This document shows positions 20,585 to 62,457 of a DNA stretch of 64,000 bases, in pieces; position 1 is the first letter of the stretch, and every line of letters begins with the position of its first letter. Under the pieces are notes generated by a model that saw only the letters and a list, made by a program, of their open reading frames with translations, did not search any database and was not told where the DNA came from. Source of the DNA: Gimesia chilikensis (GTDB lineage: Bacteria > Planctomycetota > Planctomycetia > Planctomycetales > Planctomycetaceae); NCBI RefSeq assembly GCF_007744075.1, contig NZ_CP036266.1, forward strand, positions 7,840,564 through 7,904,563, in the 5' to 3' direction. The translations under genes and the position numbers were made by a program.

Positions 20585-20629
20585 TTCGGTCTTTGTAAAA
20601 AGTCTGCGCAAGTTTGGAGAAACAAGTCC

Positions 20630-22230: not shown

Positions 22231-22344
22231 CCTTCTGACACTTCACGTTTTCAGATTTTCAAGAACCAGTTTCCGGCCCTTTGCAGGGAGGGGTCGGGAT
22301 ACATCCACACATTTCATATTTCTCAAAAAAGAAAGAGAACCCCC

Positions 22345-23415: not shown

Positions 23416-23539
23416 TCTCACCTATTCGGTCATTCGAAGCGGCGATCTCTACACCCCCTGTTTTTGAAACCCCTGTTTGAGTCAAGGCCACCGGTCTGCG
23501 CTCAGTTTTCCAAATGCCACTTTTCCAAAGGACGTAAAA

Positions 23540-33410: not shown

Positions 33411-33607
33411 TGAAGAAACAAATCCACGATTTTGACGACTACGCTGAATTCATGACAAAGCAGCTTCGCACGCTCCGTCATTTTGAAAGATGCTTGTTTT
33501 CTGTATGGTGTGCCGACCATTTGCTGACATCACATACCGATCTCCTCGAAGAAAATCTGTCAGAACCCGACCTTCGAACATTGCAGGAGATTGTGAACGA
33601 TCTTTAG
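33410..33607 (+). CDS. Small hypothetical protein (65 aa)
   Basis: 65 residues starting MKKQIHDFDD; coupled to the previous frame through TAATG. Helical, charged. No family recognised. Confidence 0.5.
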   Translation: MKKQIHDFDDYAEFMTKQLRTLRHFERCLFSVWCADHLLTSHTDLLEENLSEPDLRTLQEIVNDL

Positions 33608-33613
33608 GATGCA

Positions 33614-33979
33614 TTGTTGGGTGGTGTGATTCCTGAAAAGGATCAACTGAATGCTCTCGACATGGAATTCATGGGAAACAATGACGAATGGTCTGCTCCG
33701 ATGAAAGACATTCATCCCATTGTATCTATCGTGAAGCAGAGCATCGGGATGTGCATTCTGTGTTGTCGCAGAAACGATGTCGGGTTGGCTCAGAAAATCG
33801 CACAGTTAGTGATTGACAGCCTTGAATGCACGCTCGAAGAAGACGATTCCAGTTATTCACCAGTGAGTCTGTTCGATCATCCGCAGATTAAACACGAACT
33901 TGAAATTCAGTTGGCGATGATTAAGCACTTGAAAGGCGAGTATGAATTGGATTCGAATCTGAGGATGATGTTTAGGTGA
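33614..33979 (+). CDS. Hypothetical protein (about 121 aa)
   Basis: 121 residues from a TTG, or about 105 from the ATG at 33662. Mainly helical with SIVKQSIGMCILCCRR and DHPQIKHELEIQLAM. It begins 6 bases after the previous stop. Function unknown. Confidence 0.45.
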   Translation: MLGGVIPEKDQLNALDMEFMGNNDEWSAPMKDIHPIVSIVKQSIGMCILCCRRNDVGLAQKIAQLVIDSLECTLEEDDSSYSPVSLFDHPQIKHELEIQLAMIKHLKGEYELDSNLRMMFR

Positions 33980-34095
33980 GGAGCATGTTGTGATCCACTA
34001 CTTCCAGATACACAAAAGAAAAGCTCTATAATCACCGTAATCACGGCTGCCTCATTTTAGTATCTGACAGATGAGGAATATTACTTATACGCATT

Positions 34096-37000
34096 TTAAG
34101 TCCTTGAAGAATCGGCCAAAGGGGTAAGGGACTCAAGACATACTCGAATACCATCTAAATGTTTTTGGTCAAACCTGAGAATGTTGTCTTTTCCATCTCG
34201 TCCCTTTTGTCGATCACAAATGATGAAATCATCCTCGTGATCTTCCAGCAGGTAGCTAATTAAACGTTTTTGAGCTTCGATATCTTTATGAATGTATTGT
34301 TGATATATTTCGCTACAGACGGGACACAAAACCAATTTGAGATCTGTCATCACTGGTAGTTGAACACCAACATGATCCGCCCACCTTTTGGAAAGTAGAT
34401 CAACATATTCAACAAACACTTCGTCCCTCTGATTTATAAAAGGCATTGTGTCACAACATATCTGGCAAAAGGGCTGATCTTCTTCTACATTAAAATAGTA
34501 ATCCAGTAGAGCATGACCGTCATATTCAGATTTGGAATATGCACGTACAGACCGAGCTCTCTTAGTAGAATTCTTTGTTGGGGCCTTTTTCAAACGTTCG
34601 ATATTTTTCTGGCGACGACGTTCAATATTTCCAGAGTCTGAATTTTCAACCGCTTGTCGATTTGCAGCTTCTCTATTCTTGTTTTCTTTGAACAGGTTAA
34701 ACGCCTCTTTGTGTTTCTTGATAAAATCGGCATCCTCTAAAGTGATTCCTAATTTATTTGCAAGTTCTAGTTCACTACGTCTCTTTGCTTCTTTTTTTTG
34801 GCTACTGCGGCCAAATTCAACGTCACTAAGCCATCTCTGGCTTGGATCGTATCGAAATCCCTCTGGTAGCATTTCTGCGGATGCGTCCAAGGGTTTTACG
34901 AAGTTACCGCTTATTTGTGGAATCCAACTGGTATTTTTAAGTGTGTGAACCAATTGAGAAGGAGCAGATCGAGATCCGTTAGCTTCGTTTTTCTGATAAC
35001 AGGCTACCAAATAATTCGGAGTGTCTGGTAACGAGTACATCGTCTTCCAAATTAAACTAGATATTTCAATTGATGGTGTTTCCAATACCTCACCTAAACC
35101 TTCAATTTTATAGTCTTCGTCAATACAAGAAGATGTACGACGCTTTCCGGCTACATTGGAAAGTTTATCATCCCATGATGGATTCCAAAAACATGGACTC
35201 TTTTCTGGAACCAAATGAATCGTTGCCCCAAGAGCTATTGCGAATTTGCCAATTCTCTCAGGATCGATTTCTAAGTTTAAGTAGCGGTTTGAAAGTGAAT
35301 ATTTACTAGATCGATATTCTTTTTTGAGTGATTCATAGAATGGTGCAAGGCCAGAATCATAAAAAGGAGTATCAAGATAAACCCACGATGGCCTTGCTCC
35401 TCTTCCTTCATCCGTTTCAAAGAGAAAATAATTCTTAAATAAGTGATTCTGTCTCGGATTCCCTTCTAAGAACTGAATGAATCTCTTTATGTCACCAGCT
35501 AATATATTATCGTCTATCTCATTTAAATATATATCATCATCTGTTTTATCAGGTTTGTATCGTTCATCGAGAATAGATTGAATTAAGTCAGACTCTCCAA
35601 CTTCACGCACTCCGATTTCTTCAAGAAACTTTCTCGCTTTCTCTTGGTCCTTTTTCTTTTTACCAGAAGCATAAATGCTTTCTCTGGTCCGAGGAAACGT
35701 TATGTCGTTCTGATCTCCATCACTTGGGAAATATGATCCTGAACCGGTTCCTAAGGAACCATCATTCATCTTCACGATCAATAGTGAATCTAATTCCTCA
35801 AACCTATATTCATCTACTAATTCTGAATAAAGAAACGCATACATCGACTGTATCCACGCATCAGGTTTAGATTTTAACCAATCAAGTAATTCTTTATCTG
35901 GTTCTATCCAACTCTTGGAGACACTTATATTATGCTCTAACATTTGAACAAAATCATCAAATCCGATATATGAGATATCGAGCGATGAAAGGAAGTGACC
36001 TAAACGAGGATTATTTTGTGAAATGCCTATTACCCACTCCTGCCGATCATTCCCCATATTTAAATAATCTAATAAGAAATGGATGTCTTTTTTGGACAGT
36101 AGTTGCTTTAAAGATACACTACTCTGAATCAGGGTTTTCGCAGGCGCATAACTATCGTAATAGGTTGGAGTAAGCGACTTGTTCGTGAACTCAGAGACAA
36201 GCCGTTTTCTCAATGGGGCATAAAATGGTATTAAGTTGTCCTCTGGAACAGGAAGGACTCCCAAAAATTCTGGTGTAAGAAGCCCCAAATCTCGGATATC
36301 TGTCATTGATTTTGCGAGTAAATCAGCGAGGTGGTCTCTTAGATCTTCATTTACTTTACATTCACGAACACTGTCCCTTGCAACCGTAGAGGCGAATGGT
36401 GCATTTATGTGGAAACGAAGTCGTGATATCTCTTTTATGGCCGGGAAATAGATAGATACATTTCCATTTTCAAGGGGCGTAATTTCCCATGTTGAATTTG
36501 AGGTCTGAGTAGATGAATTCTTTTTATCTTTTGAGCGTCTCCTTTTTCTTTCCAGATGGAAAGCTATCGAGATATCGCATTCTTTTTGCCCGTAGTCTTT
36601 ATCTGGGTCAGCGATTTCAACCTTTTCAATAAAACGCAGCCAGTTTGTTTTAGTTTTTAGGTGTTTATTATTTTGAGTATTTGATGTTCCAAGATCTGGA
36701 TCATGGGGACGTGTTGACTGTATTTCTATTATTGAATCTGAATTACTCTTCCTATGCAAAGAACCTTTACTTCCATTCGGTAAGACGAACTCGATATTAC
36801 TGATATGTTTAAGAAACAACAGTGTGATATCGGGCAACTCAAGCAACCTCCGTTTGATTTCTTCGACAGCTATACTTGGAAATTTATGAGGATGATCAAA
36901 GGGAAAAACAAACCGGGTGCGATCACCTACATTGATTCTTTTCACATTTGAAGTATCAGGAACAACTAAATCATGAATCCGAAAATGATGGTCCCCTGAA

Positions 37001-37380
37001 TGTATTTCTGGATTTTTCGTGTATGCAAATACAGCCTTGAATCCGACTCCGAATTTCCCAATCGCAGTTGGATCATCTTTCTTGGTGCTCGTTCCGATGC
37101 TCGTGATTGATTCGAAATCTTTAAATGTAAATCTACGTTTTCCATCGTGTTCAACAACTAACTGGTCTGTTTGCAATTCAAAACTAACATAACTTGCTTC
37201 TACGTCTTCCGCATTTTGCAATAATTCATAAATGAAATGAGCATTCTCAGGATACAGTTCCGTGAGTAGATTATTTATGCCTTCGCTAAAATTATTTTCT
37301 TTATTGGCATCGACCCATCGTTGTCTACTTTTTGAGAGGTCACTCAGTAGTTTTTGCATTTCATCTGACTCTGTTGACAT
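34096..37380 (-). CDS. Sacsin-like HATPase (GHKL) protein
   Basis: 1094 residues. The N-terminus is a GHKL ATPase: YELLQNAEDVE at 51-61 (N box) and IGKFGVGFKAVF at 107-118 (G box), the pattern of sacsin-like ATPases. The C-terminus has zinc-like pairs (CQICCDT, CPVC) and a basic helical stretch at about 930-975. The middle is large and not recognised. The ATG at 37380 is preferred (AAGGTGAG upstream). It starts 10 bases after the SNF2 helicase stop, so the pair is cotranscribed. A similar ATPase-plus-helicase pairing occurs in defence regions generally; the role here is inferred. Confidence 0.82.
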   Translation of the reverse strand: MSTESDEMQKLLSDLSKSRQRWVDANKENNFSEGINNLLTELYPENAHFIYELLQNAEDVEASYVSFELQTDQLVVEHDGKRRFTFKDFESITSIGTSTKKDDPTAIGKFGVGFKAVFAYTKNPEIHSGDHHFRIHDLVVPDTSNVKRINVGDRTRFVFPFDHPHKFPSIAVEEIKRRLLELPDITLLFLKHISNIEFVLPNGSKGSLHRKSNSDSIIEIQSTRPHDPDLGTSNTQNNKHLKTKTNWLRFIEKVEIADPDKDYGQKECDISIAFHLERKRRRSKDKKNSSTQTSNSTWEITPLENGNVSIYFPAIKEISRLRFHINAPFASTVARDSVRECKVNEDLRDHLADLLAKSMTDIRDLGLLTPEFLGVLPVPEDNLIPFYAPLRKRLVSEFTNKSLTPTYYDSYAPAKTLIQSSVSLKQLLSKKDIHFLLDYLNMGNDRQEWVIGISQNNPRLGHFLSSLDISYIGFDDFVQMLEHNISVSKSWIEPDKELLDWLKSKPDAWIQSMYAFLYSELVDEYRFEELDSLLIVKMNDGSLGTGSGSYFPSDGDQNDITFPRTRESIYASGKKKKDQEKARKFLEEIGVREVGESDLIQSILDERYKPDKTDDDIYLNEIDDNILAGDIKRFIQFLEGNPRQNHLFKNYFLFETDEGRGARPSWVYLDTPFYDSGLAPFYESLKKEYRSSKYSLSNRYLNLEIDPERIGKFAIALGATIHLVPEKSPCFWNPSWDDKLSNVAGKRRTSSCIDEDYKIEGLGEVLETPSIEISSLIWKTMYSLPDTPNYLVACYQKNEANGSRSAPSQLVHTLKNTSWIPQISGNFVKPLDASAEMLPEGFRYDPSQRWLSDVEFGRSSQKKEAKRRSELELANKLGITLEDADFIKKHKEAFNLFKENKNREAANRQAVENSDSGNIERRRQKNIERLKKAPTKNSTKRARSVRAYSKSEYDGHALLDYYFNVEEDQPFCQICCDTMPFINQRDEVFVEYVDLLSKRWADHVGVQLPVMTDLKLVLCPVCSEIYQQYIHKDIEAQKRLISYLLEDHEDDFIICDRQKGRDGKDNILRFDQKHLDGIRVCLESLTPLADSSRT

Positions 37381-37390
37381 AACACTCACC

Positions 37391-40300
37391 TTAACTTATT
37401 CGTATTGTTCCCACTAAAACCTGCTCATACCTGATATCATGGTTCTCAACACTGCTGCTTAATTCAGCGGACCTTTCTTCATATTCCCGATTAGCCCGAT
37501 TGATTTCAGCTTCTCTCATTCGTTGAATCTTCTTTTCAGTTGCAGACCGCAGGCGATCATTAAGCATCGCAATGCGACCTTCATAGCTGGCTTTCAGGCT
37601 CTGTCGTTTAAATTCTGCCAGCTTGATAACTTTCCTTCGATGGAAATCAAGGGCAACTTTCCAACAGTTATAGTGGAGTGATTCAAGAGTAGTCAGATCC
37701 ATTTCTGAAATAACAGAATCAGAGTCTGTAGCAACCTGCATTAATTCAAAGAAATGACTGGAGATGCTTTCATTATCTGAAATGACTATAAGTTCCAGAT
37801 CATGCCGTAAGCCAATGAAGTCCCACTGATAAATAGCAAAAGGGTAGACTCCTTCTGTAAACCTATTATCTGTAACAGAAAGGTGAATTTCAGGGTCCGT
37901 ATGTGTGTCAAATGAAAAGGCCGCCTGACGTGTCAGTGGATGTACCGGACTCAATAACTGAACCGAACGGTCTTCATTGGCAGTTTCTCCATCAAATGTT
38001 ATTGGTAAATGTGGTTCATTGCCTTTCAGCCATTTTTCCCAGTTCCGTTGTTGAATATCATTATTACTGGAGAAGACACGAGCGTCCTGTAGCATTTTCT
38101 TGCGTGCTTCTTCATTGATACGCAATGATTTGATTTCCGTTTTCCCAAGAATTGCCGCTGATTCGTTGATAGTTTCCAGATATGTACTGAGCATATTCTG
38201 AATTGCTTCCGGTTCCAGCCAATAACTCGTAGCATTATCAACATCCACTTTGAATCGATCTTTTAACGGTAGTGAGATTCCGAAGAACTCATGCTGTTTT
38301 TCTTCCAGCTTCTCCTCTTCGAGAAGCTGGCGTATTTCATTGTCTTCCAGTTGTCGCAGCCGTACCTGACGTTCGGCGGGAGTCAGTTCTGATTTAACAG
38401 CAATCTCATTTAACTCTTTTGTGATTTTTCCGAGTATGTCCTCGCTGGCACCCACAGCCTGCTCAAATATTCCAATACGCATTAAACAACGTTCATAAAT
38501 ATCAGCATCAACTGTCCCCGGTGTGATCATATTGTAAACGCTGACAAACTGGCTTTTTTGTCCGTTTCGATCAATACGTCCAATTCGCTGTTCAATTCGC
38601 ATTGGGTTCCACGGTAGGTCATAATTGATGATGCAATCGCAGAACTGGTAGTCCAGACCTTCACACCCAACTTCGGAAAACAAAACCACGTCGAGAGCTT
38701 CTGGATCATCTTTAGGTCGCTCGAAACGGTGACGAACTGTTGTGCGTTCTTCATCAGGAACATTACCATGAACTAGACCGACTCGAATCCCGGCACTTAA
38801 CAGCCCTTCTTTGAGGTAATGCAAAGTGTGTCGAAACGAGCTAAATATCATGATTCGGTGGTTAGGATATATCTGGGCTTCCTGCTTTTGGTTTACAAGT
38901 TGAATCACTTTCTCTAGCTTGGGGTCTTTCTTGTCCAGATTATTCGCCATAGCAATAACTGATTGGATTCTTTCAGCGATAGAATTCAAATCACCTGATT
39001 CGATCCCAAAATCTTCGATGTCTACTTCTGAGAGTTCCTCTTCACAGATATGTCGTGACAGAATGTCTTTGATATACGGTGCAAGCCCATACAAGCAACT
39101 GGCTGCCTGACGGCGAATCGTGGACATCATGAAGTTGACACTTCTTGAACCGTGCAAATCTGCAAGAATATCTGACTGTACTTTCAAAAGAGCATCATGC
39201 AAAGTGTTTTGAGAATCAGTAAAAGGGACTTCTACTGTGTGGGATTGTCGTATCGTAAATTCACCAATATCACGTCGGCGAGTACGATTGATAATCCCTG
39301 AAAACGTATGCAGGTTTTCAAGTTGATCGATAATTATGATCCTCTCCTGTTCCGAGGCATCAGGAGAGGATAGCTTATCGGTGATTTCATCCACTTCCGG
39401 GTTGTTGGTGAGCATTGAAGCCCCCCAAGAGGTCGACTGTGCCTTTTTCAGGCTTTCCAACGCCTTGGATTGCCATTCAACAGATGCACTACGGGCATGT
39501 CTCACCGCTTCATTGATCATGGGATTCGGCTCTGACATGTGATCGAAACTATCCCGATCAATCACTACATCTGGTCTCAACAATTTTAATAGTGAAAAGA
39601 GGTCACAATTGCCAAGCTGGAGGGGAGTGGCAGTCAAAAATATGACAGCTTCTGCGTTATCGCAGAAATATTTAACAGCCTCGTGACCATAAGTAGTGGG
39701 GTTCGAGATCCGGTGGGCTTCGTCCACAATAACAAGGTCAAAATGAGGGGCAGGATCGAGATCCAGTAAGCAAGGCTTCTTTGAATTCTTGCCTGTTTTA
39801 GTACCAGTGATAATTTCTTCATTTAGTATTGAATAGGGAATGATTCCAAACTGGTGTCTTTCAGGCCATTCTCCATCAAGATCGCATTCGGAAATGCAGT
39901 GACGAAGCATTTTCCCGTCGAAATGTTCGAAGTTCTGATCGAACCGCTTCATTTCTGTCTGCCACTTCTTTTCAGAAAGGAGTGGTCGGGGACATATGAT
40001 TAATACTGAGTTGATTTCCTGTCGAGCCTGTAATTCACGTAAAATCAGTCCTGCTTCTATGGTCTTTCCAACACCAACACCATCTGCGATCAGCAGGCGG
40101 GGGCGGTCAGCTCGAAGAAATCGGAGCACGGGGCGGTATTGATACGGAACAAAATCAATGCGAGCAGCATTTAATGAATAGAGTGTTGATGTGCTTGGGT
40201 GATTGATTAAGCGGGCTGTGAGAAGTGCCTGACATTCTGTTGCTGACAGAACCTGCTTGATTTGACTGGGTTCGTCATCAGCAATCAGTTGTGAGGTGAA

Positions 40301-40444
40301 ATAGCTGGAAGCTTTTCCATCAATCAGAACAGTATATTGATATTCCGGGTCTGTCTCTTTTACTTCTACAACTGCACCGATTTTATCTGGCTGAGATTTC
40401 AGGCGAACGATTTGGCCCAGATGGTATGGTTGTGAGTCCGGCAT
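37391..40444 (-). CDS. SNF2/RapA-type SF2 helicase
   Basis: 1017 residues. Motif I GVGVGKTIEAG at about 120-130, motif II VIVDEAHRIS at about 236, motif III FLTATPLQ, motif V-VI region VGCEGLDYQ and QRIGRIDRNGQ at about 618. The N-terminal 50 residues look like a small beta domain (LGQIVRLKSQPDKIGAVVEV). The C-terminus is a long helical arm (RRKVIKLAEFKRQSL, EINRANREYEE). It resembles RapA and DISARM DrmD-like helicases, but no other DISARM gene is present. It is followed closely by the HATPase gene. Confidence 0.88.
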   Translation of the reverse strand: MPDSQPYHLGQIVRLKSQPDKIGAVVEVKETDPEYQYTVLIDGKASSYFTSQLIADDEPSQIKQVLSATECQALLTARLINHPSTSTLYSLNAARIDFVPYQYRPVLRFLRADRPRLLIADGVGVGKTIEAGLILRELQARQEINSVLIICPRPLLSEKKWQTEMKRFDQNFEHFDGKMLRHCISECDLDGEWPERHQFGIIPYSILNEEIITGTKTGKNSKKPCLLDLDPAPHFDLVIVDEAHRISNPTTYGHEAVKYFCDNAEAVIFLTATPLQLGNCDLFSLLKLLRPDVVIDRDSFDHMSEPNPMINEAVRHARSASVEWQSKALESLKKAQSTSWGASMLTNNPEVDEITDKLSSPDASEQERIIIIDQLENLHTFSGIINRTRRRDIGEFTIRQSHTVEVPFTDSQNTLHDALLKVQSDILADLHGSRSVNFMMSTIRRQAASCLYGLAPYIKDILSRHICEEELSEVDIEDFGIESGDLNSIAERIQSVIAMANNLDKKDPKLEKVIQLVNQKQEAQIYPNHRIMIFSSFRHTLHYLKEGLLSAGIRVGLVHGNVPDEERTTVRHRFERPKDDPEALDVVLFSEVGCEGLDYQFCDCIINYDLPWNPMRIEQRIGRIDRNGQKSQFVSVYNMITPGTVDADIYERCLMRIGIFEQAVGASEDILGKITKELNEIAVKSELTPAERQVRLRQLEDNEIRQLLEEEKLEEKQHEFFGISLPLKDRFKVDVDNATSYWLEPEAIQNMLSTYLETINESAAILGKTEIKSLRINEEARKKMLQDARVFSSNNDIQQRNWEKWLKGNEPHLPITFDGETANEDRSVQLLSPVHPLTRQAAFSFDTHTDPEIHLSVTDNRFTEGVYPFAIYQWDFIGLRHDLELIVISDNESISSHFFELMQVATDSDSVISEMDLTTLESLHYNCWKVALDFHRRKVIKLAEFKRQSLKASYEGRIAMLNDRLRSATEKKIQRMREAEINRANREYEERSAELSSSVENHDIRYEQVLVGTIRIS

Positions 40445-40528
40445 TTATAACATTTCTTGGGATTATGAATTCCTCAGAGCCACACAAACTTGCATTCTGA
40501 GTCATCTGGTATATTCACTGGTATAGTA

Positions 40529-41707
40529 TTACTGATTATCAAACTGGGCTCTAATCTCCGAAATATGTTTTCTGTGATCACGTTCCTTCTTCTTCAAAAC
40601 ATGATCAACGGGGAAACCACGATTTCTAAGAAATTCTGCCTTTTCATCTTTCAGCTTTTGTGATCCAGATTTAAGAATACAATCAACGACGTATTCTTTT
40701 GCGTTTAATTCAGTTTCATCTTCACCCGATTTAAAATATGCCAGAACATTTCTAATCGATTCAAGCATATCATTCAGGCGATAGAGCTCTTTCAATGTCT
40801 TTCGAGACTGGTCGGCTGTTTTTGCTGATTCCGCAACTGATCTTATTTTGATGTCGATTTCCTTCCCCCATTGCTCTTCGTCAAAACGTTTACTGGCTTC
40901 TTTTGCAGAATTGTAACCCTGATGGACAACCACAAGGTTAGCATGTGACTCTGAATATTCATCAAACCAGATACTGCCGTTTTTCGCTTTTCTACGTCGG
41001 GGGATTTTAAGCAATAATTCGATTTCCGCTTCCAGTAATTGTTTGTATGCCGATACTTCTGATATCTGCACATCAAAATAAGCTAATTCCCGAGCAAGAT
41101 TCTGGACAACGCATTCTTCTGAGAGAAGTCTCTTGAGATTTGATACCGTGTCTGGAGAGTCCTTAGACCAAATTGAAACTACGAATCCACATCGCAGTCC
41201 ATCTCTTTTCATTTTCTCTTCTTCGGGGCTAAGATAAGAAACCACATTCAGCTTCGGCAGGTTCATTTTGATCATTCGTTTGGAGTAGGCATAAGGTGAA
41301 GCAATTTCATTATGCTGGTGAATATCGTTTGGCCGAAGCATGTTCCACGAATATGGTTTAATCCAGTTCAGATATTTACGAAAAACACTATCAGAGAAAT
41401 TAGCCACTCTTTGATCTTCGTTTGTGCGTAGCTCAACGAGGGCATCATGTGGATTTGCATTTCGTTCTTCTAAATCCCAGTCATTTCGAATTTCATAAAG
41501 AAGCTGCACGAATTCATCAAATTCAGGGAGATGCTCCTTAGGAATACGAAAGATTAAATCAATATCGTTTGGATTTCGTTTACCCCGGAAGAAACTACCA
41601 AAACCAAGAATTTCCAGTGGATGGTAAGGAAGTTCTCCAGTGTTTGCCCATTCGCCAAGAGTAACGAGACGATCAAATAGAGTTTTTTGACGTTTCGTGA
41701 GTTCCAA
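40529..41707 (-). CDS. Nucleotidyltransferase-domain protein
   Basis: 392 residues. The NTase signature GSFFRGKRNPNDIDL at 37-51 gives GS plus Asp48 and Asp50. After the about 150-residue NTase part the protein is helical and charged, with possible coiled coil to the end (KKKERDHRKHIS). The start is TTG at 41707 with GGAG about 6 bases upstream. It lies between the TIR gene (53 bases) and the SNF2 gene (84 bases). It could produce a signal nucleotide, act as a minimal nucleotidyltransferase antitoxin, or modify RNA; none is shown. Confidence 0.8.
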   Translation of the reverse strand: MELTKRQKTLFDRLVTLGEWANTGELPYHPLEILGFGSFFRGKRNPNDIDLIFRIPKEHLPEFDEFVQLLYEIRNDWDLEERNANPHDALVELRTNEDQRVANFSDSVFRKYLNWIKPYSWNMLRPNDIHQHNEIASPYAYSKRMIKMNLPKLNVVSYLSPEEEKMKRDGLRCGFVVSIWSKDSPDTVSNLKRLLSEECVVQNLARELAYFDVQISEVSAYKQLLEAEIELLLKIPRRRKAKNGSIWFDEYSESHANLVVVHQGYNSAKEASKRFDEEQWGKEIDIKIRSVAESAKTADQSRKTLKELYRLNDMLESIRNVLAYFKSGEDETELNAKEYVVDCILKSGSQKLKDEKAEFLRNRGFPVDHVLKKKERDHRKHISEIRAQFDNQ

Positions 41708-41760
41708 GATGACTCCTGTTTAAATAGGTATTATTCGATACAGTAACACTCAAAAACGAT

Positions 41761-42483
41761 TCAAAAATATGATGTGGGAGGAGGAGTTGTAGGAGATGGG
41801 GTAGTGGGTGACGGGGGTATCAGATCATTGAACTGATCTTCATTGATGACAACACCATCACCTTCTATATCATCCACAACGAACCATGTTCCATTCCCCC
41901 AAAAGGGATCTTTAAATACACGTAATTCAGCTCGTTTTGTCAGTCTCTCCAAAAGCCATACGCAGCTAATTCTATCAGGCTCAGTTTTAAGCCATGCAGG
42001 AATAACTGGAATACCTTCATAATTACAACAGGATATGTTCCTTTTTTCTTTGCGACCGAAATGGTCGGTGATTCGGAAAGTACAGATCTTTTTCGAAATT
42101 TTATCAGCTATTACATTGAGACCTTCATTAGTTGAAAGTCCATATCTGCCTGCCAAGAGAAGGACATGCTTTTTTACATCCTCTGCAGTTACTTTATGCC
42201 AAATTGGGAGAATGCGATCATTACCGGTGGTCTCTAAAGTAATCAGTCCATCAAGTTCACGCTTTGGCCAATATTTTTCAAAGAAATGTTGGCTTAAAAC
42301 TACAAGACCATATCTGCTGTTTCTCAATCCGTTCTCGATAGTTTCTCTAAGGTTGTCACCAATTTCAAATTCAAATTCGTCATACCACACATTCACATTA
42401 TTCGCAGAAAATATATTTGCCAATGGACGTACGATTTCATCTTTATCTTCACTCGCATGGCTTATGAATAAATCCCAATCCAT
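41761..42483 (-). CDS. TIR-domain protein
   Basis: 240 residues. Residues 1-135 form a TIR domain: DLFISHASEDK at the first strand, VWYDEFEFEIGDNL (BB-loop region), and YWPKRELDGL with the likely catalytic Glu77. Bacterial TIRs often cleave NAD+ on phage infection. Residues about 140-220 are unrecognised (FWGNGTWFVVDDIEGDG) and the end is a Pro/Thr repeat tail (PPSPTTPSPTTPPP). AAGGAAGG precedes the start. It heads the leftward row TIR, NTase, SNF2, HATPase and is divergent from the helicase at 42663. Confidence 0.88.
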   Translation of the reverse strand: MDWDLFISHASEDKDEIVRPLANIFSANNVNVWYDEFEFEIGDNLRETIENGLRNSRYGLVVLSQHFFEKYWPKRELDGLITLETTGNDRILPIWHKVTAEDVKKHVLLLAGRYGLSTNEGLNVIADKISKKICTFRITDHFGRKEKRNISCCNYEGIPVIPAWLKTEPDRISCVWLLERLTKRAELRVFKDPFWGNGTWFVVDDIEGDGVVINEDQFNDLIPPSPTTPSPTTPPPTSYF

Positions 42484-42662
42484 ACCAATATCCTTCCTTA
42501 ATTACACTGTTGCTGAACTGGATTCATACATTACTCGATTGCAGCTATGGACGGTTATGTATACTATCTGTACTAAATTAAATTTACCCTGCAATAAAGA
42601 GAAAGTACACACTTGAGTAGCGGGTATTCTCACAGCGAAATAAAGATCTTTGGTTGATATGA

Positions 42663-45600
42663 ATGGATGAAGAACTGGCGGAAGATTTAGACGATCCTGA
42701 ATCGATGGAAAACATCGATTTTGAACCTGCCAGATTCAGTTCAGATCTGGGATTACCATCTGTAGATGCCTCGATTCTGGATGACGCCAGTTATGCTGTC
42801 AGACAGGAGTTCCGAAACGAAGCAAAATGGAAAAGGCTTAATTGCAAAGAGATCAGCGTCCTTTCCGAGCAGGGGCGGGGAACAGTTTACGCTATTCACT
42901 TGGATGTTTCGTTTGAGTCTGATTGGACGTGGGAGGGGGCCTTTGCTTTTCGGCCCCAATCACTTGAGGACAATGAAGATTCTCCTAATTCCTACCATGA
43001 GAATATCGCTCACGAAAACGAAGCTCTCTGGTCTGGTGAAATCGTAGAAGTCGATGAACAAAATAACTGTCTATTCATCACACTGGAAGACTCTGAGAAT
43101 CCTCCACAAACAGGAGCTTTCTTTGTTCGACCTTTCGAATTTCTTTCAGTTCTCGATGCAGTCTATAACGAACCGGCATTTGAAGAAGTCAGAACTGAGT
43201 TACCAGCCAGATTAGAAGCATCTAAAGGTAATATTCATCCACAGATTGCAGAAACATGTTCAGAAGGACTTCCACATTTAACCAACTTATGGAAGCACTC
43301 TTGGAGTATTTTGTGGGGGCCTCCGGGGACAGGTAAGACATACACCACTGGATTGCAAATCGCATCAATATTGGATGATCAAACAGAACGTATTCTTGTT
43401 GTTTCAACCACCAACAGAGCAACTGATGCAGTCGCTCTCTCGATTGGAGATGCAACAAGAACAATTGATACATCTTACTTGGAGAATGGAGAGATACTTC
43501 GAATTGGCAAGGGGGCTTCTGCCCAGCGGTTCAAAGCAAATCATCTGGAAGAATTGTTGGAAGGTACTGAGTCTGAATTGCTTTCAAAAATTGAAAGCCT
43601 GACACATGATCTTAAATCAACTGAATCCTCAGATGATAAAGCATTTGCCAGAAAGAAAATCTCAGAACTGCGGTCGAAAACGAACGATCAGAGTAAACTC
43701 ATTTTTTTCGATCCAGATGTACGTGTTGTAATTTCAACGGCTTTTAAAGCAATGAGTTTTCTGAATGATTCCACAATCAGGAAATTGATTGAAAATGGTG
43801 ACGCACCATTCACAACAATCTTCATTGATGAAGCTGGGTTAATTTCCCGTACTGCGGTTGCTGCATTGTCTTTGCTCGCAGCAAAACGAGTTGTTTTAGT
43901 CGGTGATTCGAAGCAACTAGCCCCAATCAGTCGCATCACTCGAATACTGACAACTCGGCAGCAAACATGGTTGGCCAGCAGTGGTCTGAGTCATCTGGAT
44001 GAAATTGAAGAAACTCCATCAGCAGTTCATGTCCTGTCCGAACAGCGAAGAATGCATCCAGACGTATGCAAAATCGTTTCGAATTATCAGTATGATGGCT
44101 TTTTGAAAACTGCAAAGGAGACGATAGACCGGGAATCGACCCTGCCAACATTTATTTCAGATTACTCCAGAGCAATCTGGTATGTGCTTGATGAAGAAGA
44201 TTCAGATCTTGTATCGATTCGTGCAAAGAGAGGTCAGGGTAACAATAGCTGGATGAGATCCATCACTCCTGACATTTTACAAAAGTTGTTTTCAGAAAGT
44301 TCTGTAAGACAATCAAAAGGATTGTTTATTTCTCCATTCAAGGCACAGGCTCAATCCATTTCGAAGCGATTTTCTAATTGGGATCTTCCTAACTGGGAAG
44401 CTTCAACGGTTCATAGTCAGCAGGGTTCTGAGGCCGATATCGTAATATTCGATACAGTCAATGCCAGTAGTTACAGTTGGCCATTTGAAGAATGGAAAAG
44501 GCTTACGAACGTGGCTCTGAGCCGAGCCAGAGAAGCTGTCATCGTTCTGGCCAGCCGTAGTGAAATGGAAGAACCCTATCTGAAATCACTTACTGCGGAA
44601 TTGACTCCAAGCATACTGGTCCAGCAAGGTGCTACTGTTCGCTGGCAAAAGGTCGATCTCAAAGGGGGCAATACTCATAATTCTGGTCATGATCCATCAA
44701 AACAAAAAGAGAAGAGAGCCGATAATTCGCTTGGGGGCCAAATAGCCAACCGGCAGTCGATGAAACCGATTCTATCCGAGGAGCAACAACGGCTCACAAA
44801 CTTAAAACTGGATGGGAAGCCTCGTCTTGTACGTGGAGTTGCGGGAAGTGGAAAATCCATTGTCCTTTGCAACTGGCTTGCTAAAACAGTTAAGCGTATG
44901 ACCGACACGAAAGATTTCCATGTATGGGCAGTTTATGCAAATAGATCTTTGCATAAACTGCTGCGGGAGTCAGTCGAATCGGCATGGAGTTCAATGTCTG
45001 ATGGCGAATTATTTGATGAGGGTGACTTTCCGTGGGAATCAGTATCTCTCTTGCACATTAAAGATGTTCTCACTGAAATTCTCCCGATTGCATCATTAAC
45101 CATGAATCGATTCGAGTTCGATTATGACCGAGCAGCGGAAGAGTTTCTGAATTGTCATGATCAATCCGAAATGCTCCCACGCTGTTCAGCCTTATTTATT
45201 GATGAGGCTCAAGATATGGGGCCTTCCACATTGAAGCTGTTGCTTTCGCTGGTCGAACAAACTGATTTGGAAGATCCCAACAGTCGTTCCGCCCACATCT
45301 TTTACGATAATGCCCAGAATATTTATGGTCGTAAAACACCAAAATGGACAGAGTTCGGTCTGGATATGCGTGGTCGTTCCACAATCATGCGTGAGAGTTT
45401 CCGCTCAACGACGCCAGTAACAGAACTTGCTATAAACATTCTCAATCAACTCACGCCAAAGGACAAAAGACAGGACCAGCAGGAGTTGATCGAGATGGGA
45501 TTGGTTGAACGAACTCAAAATGGACCTGAAGAATGGTTGAAAATCAGATACAACCAGATCAGTGGACCTAATCCAATCTTTCATTCGTTCGATGATAGAC

Positions 45601-46031
45601 AGACTGAATTGGACGCCATTTTCAGACATTTAAAACACTTAATCACAGAAGAGAAAATCTCACCATGTGATATCTGCCTGATTTATAATTCAAATTCTGC
45701 CGTCCAGCTTCTTGAATCTAAATTAGGACCACTATTGTCTAAGATCAATGTGGAATTATCAGTTCAGACAAACCGAGCTTTTGAAAGGCGACCTAATACG
45801 CTGATCGTGACAACTTCACATTCATATAAGGGGTATGAATCGGAAGTTGTCTTGATTCCGTGTGTGGATCAGTATGTGACTGGAGATGGGCAAATCCTTG
45901 CCAACAATTTGTATGTGGCAATGACACGTGCCAGATCACTTTTAGCAATCTATGGAGTGAATGGAAACTATGATCCATCACAAATATTGATGAAAGCGAT
46001 TGGGAGATGCGTTGAGGTTCAATCAGGTTAA
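42663..46031 (+). CDS. Two SF1 helicases in one chain (Upf1-like plus UvrD-like)
   Basis: 1122 residues. First helicase: Walker A WGPPGTGKTYTTG at about 217, FIDEAGLIS at about 386, VGDSKQLAPI, STVHSQQGSEADIVIF, NVALSRAREA at about 615, the SF1B (Upf1/Dna2-like) set. Second: GVAGSGKSIV at about 725, FIDEAQDM at about 845, FYDNAQNIYG, RESFRSTTPV, TSHSYKGYESEVV, VAMTRARSLL at about 1084, the UvrD-like set. A 215-residue N-terminal domain precedes both. The upstream 180 bases form a divergent promoter with the TIR gene, so both may respond together. No clear ribosome binding site at the ATG. Confidence 0.88.
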   Translation: MDEELAEDLDDPESMENIDFEPARFSSDLGLPSVDASILDDASYAVRQEFRNEAKWKRLNCKEISVLSEQGRGTVYAIHLDVSFESDWTWEGAFAFRPQSLEDNEDSPNSYHENIAHENEALWSGEIVEVDEQNNCLFITLEDSENPPQTGAFFVRPFEFLSVLDAVYNEPAFEEVRTELPARLEASKGNIHPQIAETCSEGLPHLTNLWKHSWSILWGPPGTGKTYTTGLQIASILDDQTERILVVSTTNRATDAVALSIGDATRTIDTSYLENGEILRIGKGASAQRFKANHLEELLEGTESELLSKIESLTHDLKSTESSDDKAFARKKISELRSKTNDQSKLIFFDPDVRVVISTAFKAMSFLNDSTIRKLIENGDAPFTTIFIDEAGLISRTAVAALSLLAAKRVVLVGDSKQLAPISRITRILTTRQQTWLASSGLSHLDEIEETPSAVHVLSEQRRMHPDVCKIVSNYQYDGFLKTAKETIDRESTLPTFISDYSRAIWYVLDEEDSDLVSIRAKRGQGNNSWMRSITPDILQKLFSESSVRQSKGLFISPFKAQAQSISKRFSNWDLPNWEASTVHSQQGSEADIVIFDTVNASSYSWPFEEWKRLTNVALSRAREAVIVLASRSEMEEPYLKSLTAELTPSILVQQGATVRWQKVDLKGGNTHNSGHDPSKQKEKRADNSLGGQIANRQSMKPILSEEQQRLTNLKLDGKPRLVRGVAGSGKSIVLCNWLAKTVKRMTDTKDFHVWAVYANRSLHKLLRESVESAWSSMSDGELFDEGDFPWESVSLLHIKDVLTEILPIASLTMNRFEFDYDRAAEEFLNCHDQSEMLPRCSALFIDEAQDMGPSTLKLLLSLVEQTDLEDPNSRSAHIFYDNAQNIYGRKTPKWTEFGLDMRGRSTIMRESFRSTTPVTELAINILNQLTPKDKRQDQQELIEMGLVERTQNGPEEWLKIRYNQISGPNPIFHSFDDRQTELDAIFRHLKHLITEEKISPCDICLIYNSNSAVQLLESKLGPLLSKINVELSVQTNRAFERRPNTLIVTTSHSYKGYESEVVLIPCVDQYVTGDGQILANNLYVAMTRARSLLAIYGVNGNYDPSQILMKAIGRCVEVQSG

Positions 46032-46175
46032 GAATACTTCTTGGTTAGAGAAATTTATTATAAAATCATCTCGAAACATTTCCCCAATGGATCTGTTTAG
46101 TTTCCGAATCGGGTAGTGTGGCTAAAAAGTAATATCAATTCAAAGATTGTTTTACATGTGAGGTTGTGACTCTGT

Positions 46176-47000
46176 TTATTCATTGTGATCATCCAGAGCT
46201 TTGATGTACCGTACCGCTGATCTCTGGACAGCCGCTTTTCCATCTGTGGTAACAATCTTTCCCCAGAAGGCTCCATAGATGCGAGAGAAACTGAACGGTT
46301 CGACGGTGTCAGCAATTCGCCGAACTACTGATGCTGGCAAAGGGATGAAGTTGGGATAGGAGTACATGAAACTCACCCAGCGTCGATCCTGAACAACTTG
46401 CAAAATATCGCCGGTGAGAAGCACTCCCTCTCTAGTTGCACCCTCGGACCAGTGCAGGACCGTACCGCCGTCAAAGTGTCCACCGCACCGAATCAATGTC
46501 AGGTCATCACTGATCTCCTTCGTTTCACCATCCCAAAACTGAACGGCTGGATCGGACCGCATCACCCACTCCCGGTCGTCCTCGTGCAGATAGATCGGGC
46601 AATCAAATGCTCGGCTCCATTCCACCATGCTCGTGTAGTAGTGCGGATGTGAAATGGCAATGGCTGAGATACCACCGATGCCTTTCACCATTTGAATGAG
46701 GCCATCATCGATGAGCGGGATGCAGTCCCAGAGGATGTTTCCTTCGGGACGAACAATGAGCAATGCCCGCTGACCAATTGCAAAGGCTGGTTCCATCCCG
46801 ATCCCATAGAGACCAAATTCTTTGAGCCTGATGACGTTTCGATGCGACTCTCGAAGATCTGGGAGAGTCGTCCATTGCTGTCCTTGCCAGCCAACGTACT
46901 GCCGCTCATCAGTACAAATCTTACATTCGGGAGGTGGCTGATCCATCTCATTGAACTGCGTCCCGCAGGTTGTGCAGATGAAGTTGGACATTTTGTTCAT
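46176..47000 (-). CDS. Metallo-beta-lactamase-fold protein with zinc-ribbon N-terminus
   Basis: 274 residues. Residues 8-33 have CTTCG and CKIC, a small zinc ribbon. The MBL core has SHPHYYTSMVEW in place of HxHxDH (first two His kept, Asp-His replaced by Tyr-Tyr), then GGHFDGGTVLHW and LLTGDILQV, which supply further metal ligands. The altered motif means the second metal site may be lost. Similar proteins are annotated as hydrolases. Start alternatives at MNKM or MSNF. It is convergent with the helicase gene at 42663. Confidence 0.75.
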   Translation of the reverse strand: MNKMSNFICTTCGTQFNEMDQPPPECKICTDERQYVGWQGQQWTTLPDLRESHRNVIRLKEFGLYGIGMEPAFAIGQRALLIVRPEGNILWDCIPLIDDGLIQMVKGIGGISAIAISHPHYYTSMVEWSRAFDCPIYLHEDDREWVMRSDPAVQFWDGETKEISDDLTLIRCGGHFDGGTVLHWSEGATREGVLLTGDILQVVQDRRWVSFMYSYPNFIPLPASVVRRIADTVEPFSFSRIYGAFWGKIVTTDGKAAVQRSAVRYIKALDDHNE

Positions 47001-47051
47001 TTTTCATTGGTTTATCTACGAATTGGTATTTCGCATAAGATATGCGGCTTC

Positions 47052-47531
47052 CTACTTGGGCTTTTCTCTCTCGAATGTTGCAAGAAATATTTCATTACCG
47101 GGCGTAGAAGTGAACTCAGTAGGACGATCTTTTCCCGCTGAGGCAAAACACAACTTTCGAGTTTTCTCTCCAAGTATGTATATTCCGTTGAACCGCTTAC
47201 CCTCGCCATGACCTTTACTTGGTATGAAAACGATGGTTTTGGGTTTCTGTGTTGGATCAATGGTGCTCGTTCCCTTGATGACTTCATTGCCCTTTGAGCG
47301 AAGACTCCATGTGCCATCAGTACTATTAACCACCGTAAAGTTCTTGATGTACTCTTCGTTAATCTTAGTGCCATTGATTTCGTAGGAGACGAGCCTCCAT
47401 GTCCCTTCCAGCATCTTGCGATCATTCTTGATTGCTTCATCCTTGGCATCGTCTGCTGTAGCATTCGAACCAAACAACGTGAGCATTGCTAAAGCTCCGA
47501 CTAACATGAATCCGAAATGAGAACGTGACAC
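47052..47531 (-). CDS. TIGR03067-family secreted protein
   Basis: 159 residues from a GTG start at 47531, preferred because AAGGGGAG lies 5 bases upstream; a longer ATG start at 47573 has no such signal. The N-terminus is a signal peptide (FMLVGALAMLTLFGSNATA) cut near Ala-Asp-Asp. The body matches the planctomycete TIGR03067 family: DRKMLEGTWRLVSYEING, TFTVV-like strands, KPKTIVF, FNGIYILGEKTRKLCF. The family is a beta-barrel-like domain of unknown function. Confidence 0.85.
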   Translation of the reverse strand: MSRSHFGFMLVGALAMLTLFGSNATADDAKDEAIKNDRKMLEGTWRLVSYEINGTKINEEYIKNFTVVNSTDGTWSLRSKGNEVIKGTSTIDPTQKPKTIVFIPSKGHGEGKRFNGIYILGEKTRKLCFASAGKDRPTEFTSTPGNEIFLATFEREKPK

Positions 47532-47777
47532 AATATCTCCCCTTAAAGATGACCAGATTGGTAGTCGCCGCATTTATGACGAAAGTTGATTTTAGCCGAC
47601 CAGAAAGTTACGTACAACTATTTTAATTATGAGAGGGGCTAAAGTCCGAACTGCTCTCGAATTATCGTTACTAATCTGGCAACCCACGACACTCCTTCTA
47701 TGAGTTCCGTTTCAGACCGGATTCTGTACTTGAGCGAGTCGGGAGGTTGATATTGTAATCGATGTGGATGTCAGCAA

Positions 47778-48329
47778 TCACCCTTGTCGTCGTATTTGCC
47801 CAACCCACTGAGCCAGTTCCTTCAGGTCGTCCACATCCATCCCAGCAACAAGTTCTTGTCGGTGGCTGTCGTGAACGGCAAGAATGTGATCTTCATGGAA
47901 GATGATCTCGTCACCTTGCTTCAGTCCGTGCAGTCGGGTTTCGATCAATGGATTATCCACAGCACCACGGAACAAGCTTCCCGACCTTTCTTCCACTCGA
48001 ACCCAAAAATCCTCACCCCACCCACGAGATGGGACATTCTGTATTGGTAGCGGTATCAATGATGCAGGATGGTCGTGCTTTAAAATCGGCTTCGACATTT
48101 CACCATTACATGATGGGCAGGAACATTTCTCAAGAGAGTCCTCGTGAACGGAGAACCTTGAAGAGTCGATCCTGAGTTCAACAAACTGGCTGGGGTTTAC
48201 ATGTCGCTTGATAACATCGGGCGGGATATGGAAATTCTCTGGATTCTCGGCGTGCATTGCGACTCCATTCACCAACTCGTAATCGTTGGAGAAGTGCTGG
48301 GAGTCAAGTTGTTGTTGAAGAGTTGTCAT
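47778..48329 (-). CDS. DUF2314-like protein
   Basis: 183 residues. The C-terminal half has EDFWVRVEERSGSLFRGAVDN, then GLKQGDEIIFHEDHILAVHD, which resembles DUF2314 (a pattern of WVxV, FxGxLxN and GDxIxF). A CSCPSCNGEM pair near residue 70 suggests a zinc site. Weak match; the function is unknown. It begins 9 bases after the 68-residue gene. Confidence 0.6.
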   Translation of the reverse strand: MTTLQQQLDSQHFSNDYELVNGVAMHAENPENFHIPPDVIKRHVNPSQFVELRIDSSRFSVHEDSLEKCSCPSCNGEMSKPILKHDHPASLIPLPIQNVPSRGWGEDFWVRVEERSGSLFRGAVDNPLIETRLHGLKQGDEIIFHEDHILAVHDSHRQELVAGMDVDDLKELAQWVGQIRRQG

Positions 48330-50073: not shown

Positions 50074-51114
50074 TTAGCATTCGTCGCCAAGTGTCTCTGT
50101 TTCGTCCACGCCCTCGTCGGACGTTCCGCCATGCCATTCAATTGACTGGAGTTTTTGTGTCACTGAGTCGTTGAAAAATTGAAAGTCTGGGGCTGAATCG
50201 AGGAACAATCTAAGGCACTGACCATCTTTGACCGGCTTTACCACTTCGGGATCGCTTAGGCCCTTCTTCCAGAAGTCCATGTCACCTTCAAATCGACCTT
50301 GCTGCCAGACGTAAGCGTTCTTCGTCCGTGCAGCCATAAACCATCGGCGTTTACCACCGAGTCGATATCTCAGGATGCGTTTTCGAAGATATGATTCTCG
50401 ATCTGCCGTCAATTCTTGCTCGAAGTACGACGTGACGGCTGGATTGCTGACACCGGCCAAAGCTGCTTTACAATCAGGCCATTTGACCTTGCTGGTACTG
50501 CCATGCTTTCGGCCTCGTGACACTGATTCTTTCGCCAACTCAGGAGCAGGATAGACATTGGAGCAGACGAGATACTCTGAATCGGTTACTGAATCCTTTG
50601 CAACGGCGATCCGACAGCAGGTGATGTCCACGCCGTATTGCTCACTGAGCCATTCTGCGGCGATTAACAGTGCATAGTCATAACCCTCGGCAATGAGAAT
50701 GATCCGCTGCTGTCGATTGATGTCGTCACGATCAACTTCCAGAAAATCCGTCAACGCATCCTGTTGTACGTCGTCCAGCAATTTGAGGAAATCATCAGGC
50801 TCCCATTGGGAGATCATTCCGGCATAGGAAATTGCCTGAAGCATGTGAAGTTTGTGATTGCCACGTTTCAGTTCAACAACGACACAACCACCCTCTTTAT
50901 CGACAGCAAGTAGATCGATGCGATCCTGCACGTTCTGCGATGGTTCTATCTCTTTTCCGATCAGGAATAGTTCCAGTCCGAGTTCCTTAAAGAAGGCATC
51001 TGGACTATTCGAGATGAACTCTTGTAAGTCGTACCGCTCCGTGATCGACACATCTGCCAGCGTGGGTGTGTCGAGCAATGAGAAGCTTTGGTTTTTTCTG
51101 TCGATCTTGAGCAT
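50074..51114 (-). CDS. PD-(D/E)xK nuclease-like protein (NucS/DUF91-type)
   Basis: 346 residues. The core RIDLLAVDKEGGCVVVELKRG gives Asp67, Glu81 and Lys83, the classic catalytic set of this fold. DLQEFISNSPD and FLIGKEIE before it match the NucS/DUF91 pattern. The C-terminal 150 residues (KHGSTSKVKWPDC, RRWFMAARTKN) are not recognised. It lies 17 bases past brxL and may belong to the same transcript, adding nuclease activity to the BREX region; this is inference. Confidence 0.75.
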   Translation of the reverse strand: MLKIDRKNQSFSLLDTPTLADVSITERYDLQEFISNSPDAFFKELGLELFLIGKEIEPSQNVQDRIDLLAVDKEGGCVVVELKRGNHKLHMLQAISYAGMISQWEPDDFLKLLDDVQQDALTDFLEVDRDDINRQQRIILIAEGYDYALLIAAEWLSEQYGVDITCCRIAVAKDSVTDSEYLVCSNVYPAPELAKESVSRGRKHGSTSKVKWPDCKAALAGVSNPAVTSYFEQELTADRESYLRKRILRYRLGGKRRWFMAARTKNAYVWQQGRFEGDMDFWKKGLSDPEVVKPVKDGQCLRLFLDSAPDFQFFNDSVTQKLQSIEWHGGTSDEGVDETETLGDEC

Positions 51115-51131
51115 AGTTTGTCTTCTCTAAG

Positions 51132-53159
51132 TTATGTCATCCCTAACGCCTTCATTGCCGCAGTCATTGGGTCAGAAAAGAACACTGGGTCCACTCTTTC
51201 CACGATGTCGCCTGACACTTCGAGGAAGTTGCGTTTGTTCTCCAGCGGAACCAATGCTCGGCGTGCCCCGTTATCCATTGCGACTTGCAGTGGTTCAGCC
51301 AGCGTGCGGAGCGATTTGATATTTCCCTGAATACTCAAGTCGCCGAGGATCACCAAACCGGCCAGAACCGATTGTCGCTTAATCGCCGAATAGACGGCGA
51401 CCACTAAGGCGATACCAGCTTCACAGGGAACGTGGTTGCTGAGTAGGTCGATGGCCTCGACGTGAAAGTCGGTCGTATCGAACTGCTGACCAATTCCCAT
51501 TTTTACCTTCTGGCCTTGAAGGTAAGCGAAGGCTCGCTGGAGCGATTCCTTCATGGCACCTTCCACACCGCCAGCGATTTTGAGTTTGCCTGTTCCCGGT
51601 GATGTGCCCACCTCCAGCCGGTAAAGCCCCACTTTACCTTGGTCATCGACGGAGGCGGTATAGAGAGAGCCGGGAGCCAGTGGGTCCGCCGCAATCATGT
51701 CTCGACCGCCTTGTTCGGGAACACCAACAAACCGTTCCTCACGAGACTCGCTGTCAATGAAAGAGAAAGAAGTCTGATGGTACTCGAATGACCCCATTTT
51801 CTTGAGTTGTTCCTTTACCCGGCGACGGCCTTCCAATGACAGTTCTAGAAGTTCTCCCAACTCATCCTTCGTCACTTCGCCGTGTGGATAGATCAGCTTG
51901 ACCAGCCCTGACACCGATTTCCGAACGGCTTTCACATCACGAGCATTCAGATGAGAACCAAGTGCGAAATGCCGGTCGATTATTTCTGTGAAATTGTGCC
52001 TTCGAAGTTCTCTCAATGCCTCCGCCAAATAATCCACGACGAAGCCATAGTGGTCGGTAAAGAACTCAACTCGCATCTTTGGGATTTCCCAACCGGGGAT
52101 GTAGAAGTGGATGCGGTCGAGAAAAGCCATGTCTTCTCGAATCACGTCAGGCATAGGCATGAATAGATGAGACGACCGAACCATAACCTCCACAGGTTGG
52201 TTGGTGTTGCCGAACATCGAAATCGATGCCATGCCGGAAAGCGAATCTTTGCCACGGGCAAACGTACCCGATTCGCAGTAGGTCTTGAGTGTAGTCACGA
52301 CTTCCTTCGGCATCTTTTGAAGGTCAGCTACTTCATCGAACGCTACAGCATCCCACATTCCTACCAATCCCATCTTGCCGCTGGCCATGTTATAGAACAG
52401 GTTGGCCACCGTTGTCGGGCCTGTGAGGAGAATCGTGTATGGTGAAAGCTCCTGATAACCGTAGCTCTTGCCGGTTCCACGGGGGCCAAGTTCGACAAGG
52501 TTATAGTTTTGTTCACAAAGGCCCAACAGACGTACTAGAAAAAGCAGCTTCACTCGTCGTTCAAAAAACGACGGCTCCATACCGATGGTACGGAGCAACA
52601 GGTCGATCCATTCATCCGTGGTGAACTGGCTGCGGCACTCCCGGTATTCTTCGAGGTCAAAGGTGGCAAGTTGAATCGGTTTGATACTGTCGATCCAGAA
52701 TGGACTACGTTTGCCTTTCTGCTCTTCATCGTACTGGTGACGCAAATCAATTTGTGCCCAAATACCTCCCATCAGTAGTCGGTCGTAATCCCGCATGAAA
52801 TGTTCAGGGATGTGAACGAACTTATGGCCAAAGTTCTTGAGTTCAGCCCAGTATTTGTCGTCATCGGAGACGTAACGGACTTGCACCTTATCGATCAGAG
52901 TATGCTTTCCTTTGTCTTTCACAATCGATTGGGCTTTGTTGGACTCATCGGGGCGGACAAAGTTCGAGGATAATGTGTTATTGACCACCTTCAGCCCGGC
53001 GTCGATGGCAACGGGATCATCGGTTGCGCAATACTTGCCCAGCAGGTATTCAAGGACGAAAACCGGGACGTTGGCCCCCACTTTCACCTTACGGACTAAA
53101 TCTTTGCGAACGACTTTGCCCGCAAACACGGATGCCGCTTTTCGGTCTAATTCTGGCAT
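51132..53159 (-). CDS. brxL: BREX protein BrxL (AAA ATPase with Lon-like C-terminus)
   Basis: 675 residues. N-terminal MCM-like region, then Walker A GPRGTGKSY at about 225, Walker B VAFDEVADL, GNTNQP (sensor), and a C-terminal Lon-like domain from about 555. BrxL is a DNA-binding ATPase required for BREX defence. The Lon dyad looks absent: the family PSAG site reads PCEAG and the Lys position is not kept; the ring ATPase motifs are intact. It starts 9 bases past pglZ. Confidence 0.93.
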   Translation of the reverse strand: MPELDRKAASVFAGKVVRKDLVRKVKVGANVPVFVLEYLLGKYCATDDPVAIDAGLKVVNNTLSSNFVRPDESNKAQSIVKDKGKHTLIDKVQVRYVSDDDKYWAELKNFGHKFVHIPEHFMRDYDRLLMGGIWAQIDLRHQYDEEQKGKRSPFWIDSIKPIQLATFDLEEYRECRSQFTTDEWIDLLLRTIGMEPSFFERRVKLLFLVRLLGLCEQNYNLVELGPRGTGKSYGYQELSPYTILLTGPTTVANLFYNMASGKMGLVGMWDAVAFDEVADLQKMPKEVVTTLKTYCESGTFARGKDSLSGMASISMFGNTNQPVEVMVRSSHLFMPMPDVIREDMAFLDRIHFYIPGWEIPKMRVEFFTDHYGFVVDYLAEALRELRRHNFTEIIDRHFALGSHLNARDVKAVRKSVSGLVKLIYPHGEVTKDELGELLELSLEGRRRVKEQLKKMGSFEYHQTSFSFIDSESREERFVGVPEQGGRDMIAADPLAPGSLYTASVDDQGKVGLYRLEVGTSPGTGKLKIAGGVEGAMKESLQRAFAYLQGQKVKMGIGQQFDTTDFHVEAIDLLSNHVPCEAGIALVVAVYSAIKRQSVLAGLVILGDLSIQGNIKSLRTLAEPLQVAMDNGARRALVPLENKRNFLEVSGDIVERVDPVFFSDPMTAAMKALGMT

Positions 53160-53168
53160 GACTTATCC

Positions 53169-55760: not shown

Positions 55761-55781
55761 TTCTTTGACAATACTCCTTAG

Positions 55782-56579: not shown

Positions 56580-56580
56580 C

Positions 56581-61646: not shown

Positions 61647-61647
61647 A

Positions 61648-62454: not shown

Positions 62455-62457
62455 GGT

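Follow-up and report, generated by a model that had tools for sequence, protein, structure and literature searches.

A conserved SNF2–sacsin-type ATPase gene pair in a putative defence insertion beside a type I BREX operon of Gimesia chilikensis

In a 64,000-nucleotide stretch of the Gimesia chilikensis genome (the window), five genes lie together in an inserted block beside a type I BREX operon, and two of them, encoding a SNF2/RapA-type translocase and a sacsin-type HATPase, form a gene pair that is present in at least 17 named bacterial phyla. As a rule, the pair seems to act through a HEPN RNase domain carried by the SNF2 protein itself, while the window locus carries genes for a TIR-domain protein and a predicted nucleotidyltransferase (NTase) instead. 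The best reading of the locus is an unnamed abortive-infection module, a defence function that we infer from sequence.

All five reading frames, which occupy positions 34096–46031 in the ORF listing of the window, are intact (Table 1). Four of the genes are transcribed leftward in the order TIR, NTase, SNF2, HATPase, with gaps of 53 bases between TIR and NTase and 84 bases between NTase and SNF2; the SNF2–HATPase gap is 1 base if counted from the GTG start, or 10 bases from an ATG three codons in. The fifth gene, encoding a tandem SF1 helicase, is divergent and starts ~180 bases from the TIR start. The ORFs and their Pfam matches agree with the preliminary description of this DNA in the number, order, strands, spacing and domains of the genes, and motif inspection agrees with the NTase residues D48 and D50 that it had named; the catalytic glutamate of the TIR domain, given there as E77, is one residue earlier. 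Between the four leftward genes, no terminator-like sites are predicted on their strand. A scan for sigma-70 promoters returned fewer sites than in shuffled sequence and is uninformative, and an Rfam search gave no matches.

Table 1 Features of the Gimesia chilikensis locus, in window coordinates
Feature	Position	Strand	Remarks
Inserted block, ~12.2 kb	33979–46176		Flanks adjoin each other at other sites; low GC3
Sacsin-type HATPase	34096–37389	−	GTG start; second gene of the conserved core
SNF2/RapA/DrmD-type translocase	37391–40444	−	First gene of the conserved core
NTase, predicted pol-beta-type	40529–41707	−	392 aa; very rare; motif GS-x-D-x-D
TIR-domain protein, AbTIR/TcpB class	41761–42483	−	Catalytic E76
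Tandem SF1 helicase	42663–46031	+	Divergent; AAA_11/12 half and UvrD-like half; probable accessory
Type I BREX operon (BrxL, PglZ, PglX, BrxC)	50074–63963	−	Defence-island context, outside the cluster

The five genes are one foreign, recently acquired block. In the host genome, a single contig of 8.29 Mb, the block is flanked on the left by a gene of a 189-aa type (ending at ~33979) and on the right by a gene encoding a metallo-beta-lactamase-fold protein (46176–47000). Where these two genes recur, at another site in this genome and in two congeners (loci L134, L135 and L136), only ~70 bp lies between them. A contig of a third congener (C56 of genome G394) has the BREX-side flank in common with the window at 99.9% DNA identity, holds ~390 bp in place of window positions 33981–47791, and carries a different insert at the ~48.0 kb position. 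GC3 is 0.31–0.40 in the five block genes versus 0.51–0.61 in the adjacent flank genes tested; a more distant gene at 27.5–29.5 kb is also low (0.36). The adjacency of the flanks elsewhere, the replacement in the third congener and the low GC3 together indicate a spot for mobile cargo beside the BREX operon, which lies ~4 kb from the block. The earlier interpretation is supported in part: the insertion comparison and GC3 mark a single acquired block, and the neighbouring BREX operon places it in a defence island.

Several further observations concern this region. Next to the same BREX flank, the third congener has an island (L133, 7436–14183) that, identified by eye, encodes a CHAT/TPR-like protein of 632 aa, a DprA-like protein of 297 aa and a phosphoribosyltransferase-like protein of 212 aa. 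The BREX region of the window also holds members of the PADLOC candidate families PDC-S11 (50074–51114) and PDC-M70A (56581–57786). The 189-aa gene family (window 33434–33981) has several copies per genome, located at the edges of variable inserts (L134–L139), and is perhaps a hotspot marker. Farther away, a gene for a PD-T4-6-like kinase (7587–9587) and several genes of methyltransferase type lie within window positions 7587–24646, which suggests that the left part of the window has more mobile or defence content.

The preliminary description had named conserved co-occurrence of the four leftward genes as the check on its candidate cluster. Scanning genome contigs with an SNF2 alignment yielded 80 loci, to which five viral loci were added, and no homologue of the TIR or the NTase gene was detected in any of these 85 related neighbourhoods; the check therefore fails, and a conserved four-gene system was rejected.

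The conserved unit is the inner pair of SNF2 and sacsin-type HATPase genes. In 59 of 73 loci, the SNF2 gene has a sacsin gene directly behind it in the same orientation, mostly at distances of −32 to +40 bp, and six of the SNF2 loci with no adjacent sacsin gene lie at contig ends. Under a looser definition of adjacency, the pair is found for 63 of 71 close SNF2 relatives as against 3 of 14 more distant, outgroup SNF2s. Defined as an SNF2 relative scoring at least 450 bits and immediately followed by a sacsin HATPase gene, the pair includes the window locus (gap 1–10 bases). Pairwise distances among the SNF2 proteins correlate with those among the sacsin proteins in a mirror-tree comparison (r 0.74; permutation maximum 0.13), and both this and the adjacency counts support the earlier suggestion that the two genes form a pair. 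On plasmids of Rhizobium, Ensifer and Methanomethylovorans the helicase gene directly precedes the sacsin gene, a divergent copy of the pair occurs on an archaeal plasmid, and the SNF2 gene is also present on five putative viral contigs, three of which have a same-strand sacsin neighbour detectable by phmmer. Several relatives are located within or close to R-M, ABC-3C or Qat loci, and for one of them (L049) a SEFIR/TIR-like gene, part of a type III R-M operon, is found two genes upstream; other pairs (L025, with HEPN, and L100, without) stand among ordinary genes with no other defence genes. In Rhizobiaceae (L021, L022 and L080), a sigma-factor-like protein of 176–184 aa is encoded before the SNF2 gene; the one tested has no Pfam match, and it is possibly a dedicated regulator.

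The window translocase matches the Pfam families SNF2-rel (2.5e-17) and Helicase_C (2.9e-20), has its Walker A motif at residue 124 and its DEAH box at 241, and has RapA as its nearest PDB protein. PADLOC 2.0.0 has no dedicated model for the SNF2–sacsin pair and reads the SNF2 protein as DrmD-like, with matches to DrmD profiles (4e-109) and BrxHII profiles. The resemblance to DrmD of class 1 DISARM, however, falls below the NCBIfam equivalog cut-off (DISARM_DrmD, 296.7 bits versus 610), and DrmA, DrmB, DrmC and the methylase are all missing from the five-gene block. BrxHII of type 3 BREX and ArmA of ARMADA (PMC12839542, PMC12458937) have the RapA-type Swi2/Snf2 architecture in common with the window protein, but their partners differ, and the window unit itself lacks PglX and PglZ.

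In 42 relatives, a Swt1-type HEPN domain is fused to the N-terminus of the SNF2 protein (HEPN_Swt1, PF18731, E 9.5e-22 in the one relative scanned), and the RNxWAH active motif is intact in 38 of 39 HEPN–SNF2 proteins. The domain is absent from the window SNF2 and from ~30 other relatives. The N-terminus of the window protein coincides with the start of the region that follows the HEPN domain in its relatives, and the TIR and NTase genes occupy the place before it. No HEPN domain was detected in the block, and near HEPN-free pairs no stand-alone HEPN gene was found, the sole separate HEPN ORF being part of a split copy in L081. Mapped on the SNF2 tree, the presence of HEPN corresponds to ~9–12 gains or losses, a count that is approximate because the tree was built quickly and includes some long branches and a few mis-scored rows (L032, L051 and L055, with degenerate or odd motifs, and the truncated L052).

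Fusions of this type have been recorded: a 2013 HEPN census lists a HEPN(Swt1)–SWI2/SNF2 protein with an active HEPN domain (WQE_15321) in one line (PMC3710099). In the passages concerned, the census makes no mention of a sacsin-type partner, and the window locus differs from its entry in being HEPN-free and carrying TIR and NTase genes. Operons combining a GHKL ATPase with an SNF2 helicase were likewise reported in 2008 (PMC2292703). The pairing of HEPN–SNF2 with the sacsin-type protein itself is apparently undescribed, no paper naming or describing it having been found in the open-licence literature, an absence that is weak evidence; together with the lack of a PADLOC model for the pair, this is in line with the earlier statement that the locus fits no named system.

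The HATPase matches Pfam SACS (1.1e-17) and NCBIfam P_loop_sacsin, and PADLOC reads it as TmtA-like. It consists of a GHKL Bergerat fold with a transducer, ~600 aa of further conserved sequence and a C-terminal HNH-derived C4 zinc domain. An AF2 model (pLDDT 82) matches the folds of GyrB, Hsp90 and sacsin SR1 with Z ~15, and the fold is also like that of MutL; the fold matches span residues 28–475 only and say very little about the remainder of the protein. In the aligned HATPases, the key Bergerat residues do not vary. The C-terminus matches the McrA HNH profile (2.9e-7), and throughout the aligned set of 58 the catalytic histidine is missing and the zinc cysteines are mostly kept. With the HNH domain lacking this histidine, the block holds no recognisable DNase. 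These features bear on the idea of a restriction-like, DNA-cutting system related to DISARM or to the BREX helicases, rather than abortive infection. Such a system would account for the DrmD and BrxHII matches and for the HNH-derived C-terminus of the sacsin protein, and it has a precedent in the GHKL ATPases and SNF2 helicases of R-M-like operons (PMC2292703), but the catalytic histidine is gone from the aligned set and the block encodes neither a methylase nor DrmA/B/C nor a recognised nuclease, and we consider it very unlikely. The MORC/paraMORC ATPases of the R-M operons in question likewise place a GHKL-plus-S5 ATPase beside a SWI2/SNF2 helicase (PMC2292703), whereas the window ATPase is of sacsin rather than MORC type and the pair is accompanied by HEPN or TIR instead of a functional nuclease or methylase.

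The TIR protein matches Pfam TIR_2 (8.8e-20) and is close to AbTIR (4.2e-38). Its domain shares the conserved catalytic glutamate with the AbTIR and TcpB TIR NADases, and NADase activity is predicted; it differs from these proteins in having an extra C-terminal domain and in its operon with the NTase and the pair. For this C-terminal part (~110 aa) no relative was found, a plasmid search being without match. The protein is also ThsB-like at the domain level (PADLOC ThsB models, 2.1e-30), but the ThsA-like gene of Thoeris is missing from the block. The NTase has the motif GSFFRG-x5-DID at residues 37–50 and a match to DUF6932 (5.7e-5) that lies below the Pfam cut-off and lends weak support. It occurs in 1 of 392 genomes of the phylum and has no relatives in plasmids, phages, viral contigs or the PDB; its PADLOC matches are PDC-M63A and PDC-S09 only, both weak, and a single-sequence structure model (pLDDT 40) was unusable. 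CBASS requires a CD-NTase, and the window NTase matches none in PADLOC; likeness to MNT–HEPN toxin–antitoxin systems is limited by the weak NTase match and by the absence of a HEPN toxin from the block.

TIR effectors are often under messenger control, and the NTase and TIR genes adjoin. An NTase-made signal, as put forward in the preliminary description, would have the TIR protein switched on by a nucleotide second messenger from the NTase, in the manner of CBASS or Thoeris. We find this very improbable and the proposed signal unsupported, as the NTase shows only a DUF6932-like fragment and no match to a PADLOC CD-NTase model, no recognised domain for messenger binding, SAVED for instance, is present in the TIR protein, and the block has no ThsA-like partner.

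Our preferred reading, which comes close to being probable, is that the block is a horizontally acquired abortive-infection cassette, in which the pair acts as sensor and switch, TIR stands in for HEPN, and the NTase restrains or modifies. The SNF2/RapA-type translocase would probably move along nucleic acid or displace polymerase and so sense infection, and the sacsin/Hsp90-type ATPase clamp, with its nuclease-dead HNH zinc domain, would be the conformational switch. In most relatives, this switch presumably licenses the translocase-fused HEPN RNase, resulting in RNA cleavage and growth arrest; here, the TIR NADase that heads the operon in place of HEPN may be released or activated by the pair, resulting in loss of NAD. 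The NTase would most likely act as a partner that restrains or modifies, for instance by nucleotidylation of the MntA kind, and less likely as the synthase of a messenger. A sensing translocase, a switching HATPase and an acting toxin are suggested by the pairing itself, by the RNase fused in most members and by the dead nuclease domain; the further roles, TIR as the toxin and the NTase as its restraint or modifier, go one step beyond this.

The substitution of TIR for HEPN, an effector swap, is no more than suggestive, given that no TIR or NTase homologue was detected near the 85 relatives and that bare pairs exist at L025 and L100. The pair at L100, with neither HEPN, TIR nor NTase, indicates that an external effector may be unnecessary. 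The main rival to the cassette model accordingly takes the SNF2–sacsin pair as a self-sufficient defence unit that lies side by side with a second one, formed by TIR and NTase and perhaps also the SF1 helicase, merely sharing its insertion. Bare pairs and relatives without TIR or NTase fit this arrangement, and the 84-bp NTase–SNF2 gap, the largest in the leftward operon, could hold a promoter; the four genes are nevertheless co-stranded with short gaps and no predicted terminator-like site between them, have similarly low GC3 and arrived in one insertion event. We regard two separate units as a distinct possibility, if a doubtful one.

More generally, and tentatively, the SNF2–sacsin pair could well be a widespread, undescribed immune sensor and switch with exchangeable effectors, in effect a chaperone-gated receptor built from sacsin-like and RapA-like parts. 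If so, an Hsp90/sacsin-type ATPase would be gating a toxin linked to a translocase in an immune module whose two-gene core spans at least 17 phyla, and HEPN and TIR loci would offer a natural comparison of swapped effectors. According to the HEPN census, the human ataxia protein sacsin also combines sacsin ATPase modules with a HEPN domain (PMC3710099); the pair would then provide a bacterial setting in which to probe the role of sacsin ATPase modules beside HEPN domains.

In the cassette model, the divergent tandem SF1 helicase would be an accessory that processes nucleic acid. The first half of the protein matches AAA_12 (1.6e-32) and the second has UvrD-type motifs, with two Walker A motifs (219 and 725) and two copies of motif II (389 and 847). 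SF1 helicases recur elsewhere as a third neighbour of the pair, accounting for ~10 of the 30 genes that adjoin the sacsin gene. A RecD-like family stands beside the pair in L040, L064, L065, L066, L069 and the viral L156, and RecB-like/AAA_12 helicases in L022 and L084. The window SF1 gene is a plausible associate since such helicases recur beside the pair; the double-helicase form was not found in any relative, and the plasmids searched contain no full-length relative of the tandem protein. Pairs of Lachnospiraceae precede genes for proteins of 1824–1924 aa (L047, 16693–22167, and L054, 8653–14427), and the one large protein scanned in detail has both an SF1 helicase and a Macro domain, which hints at ADP-ribose chemistry beside the pair.
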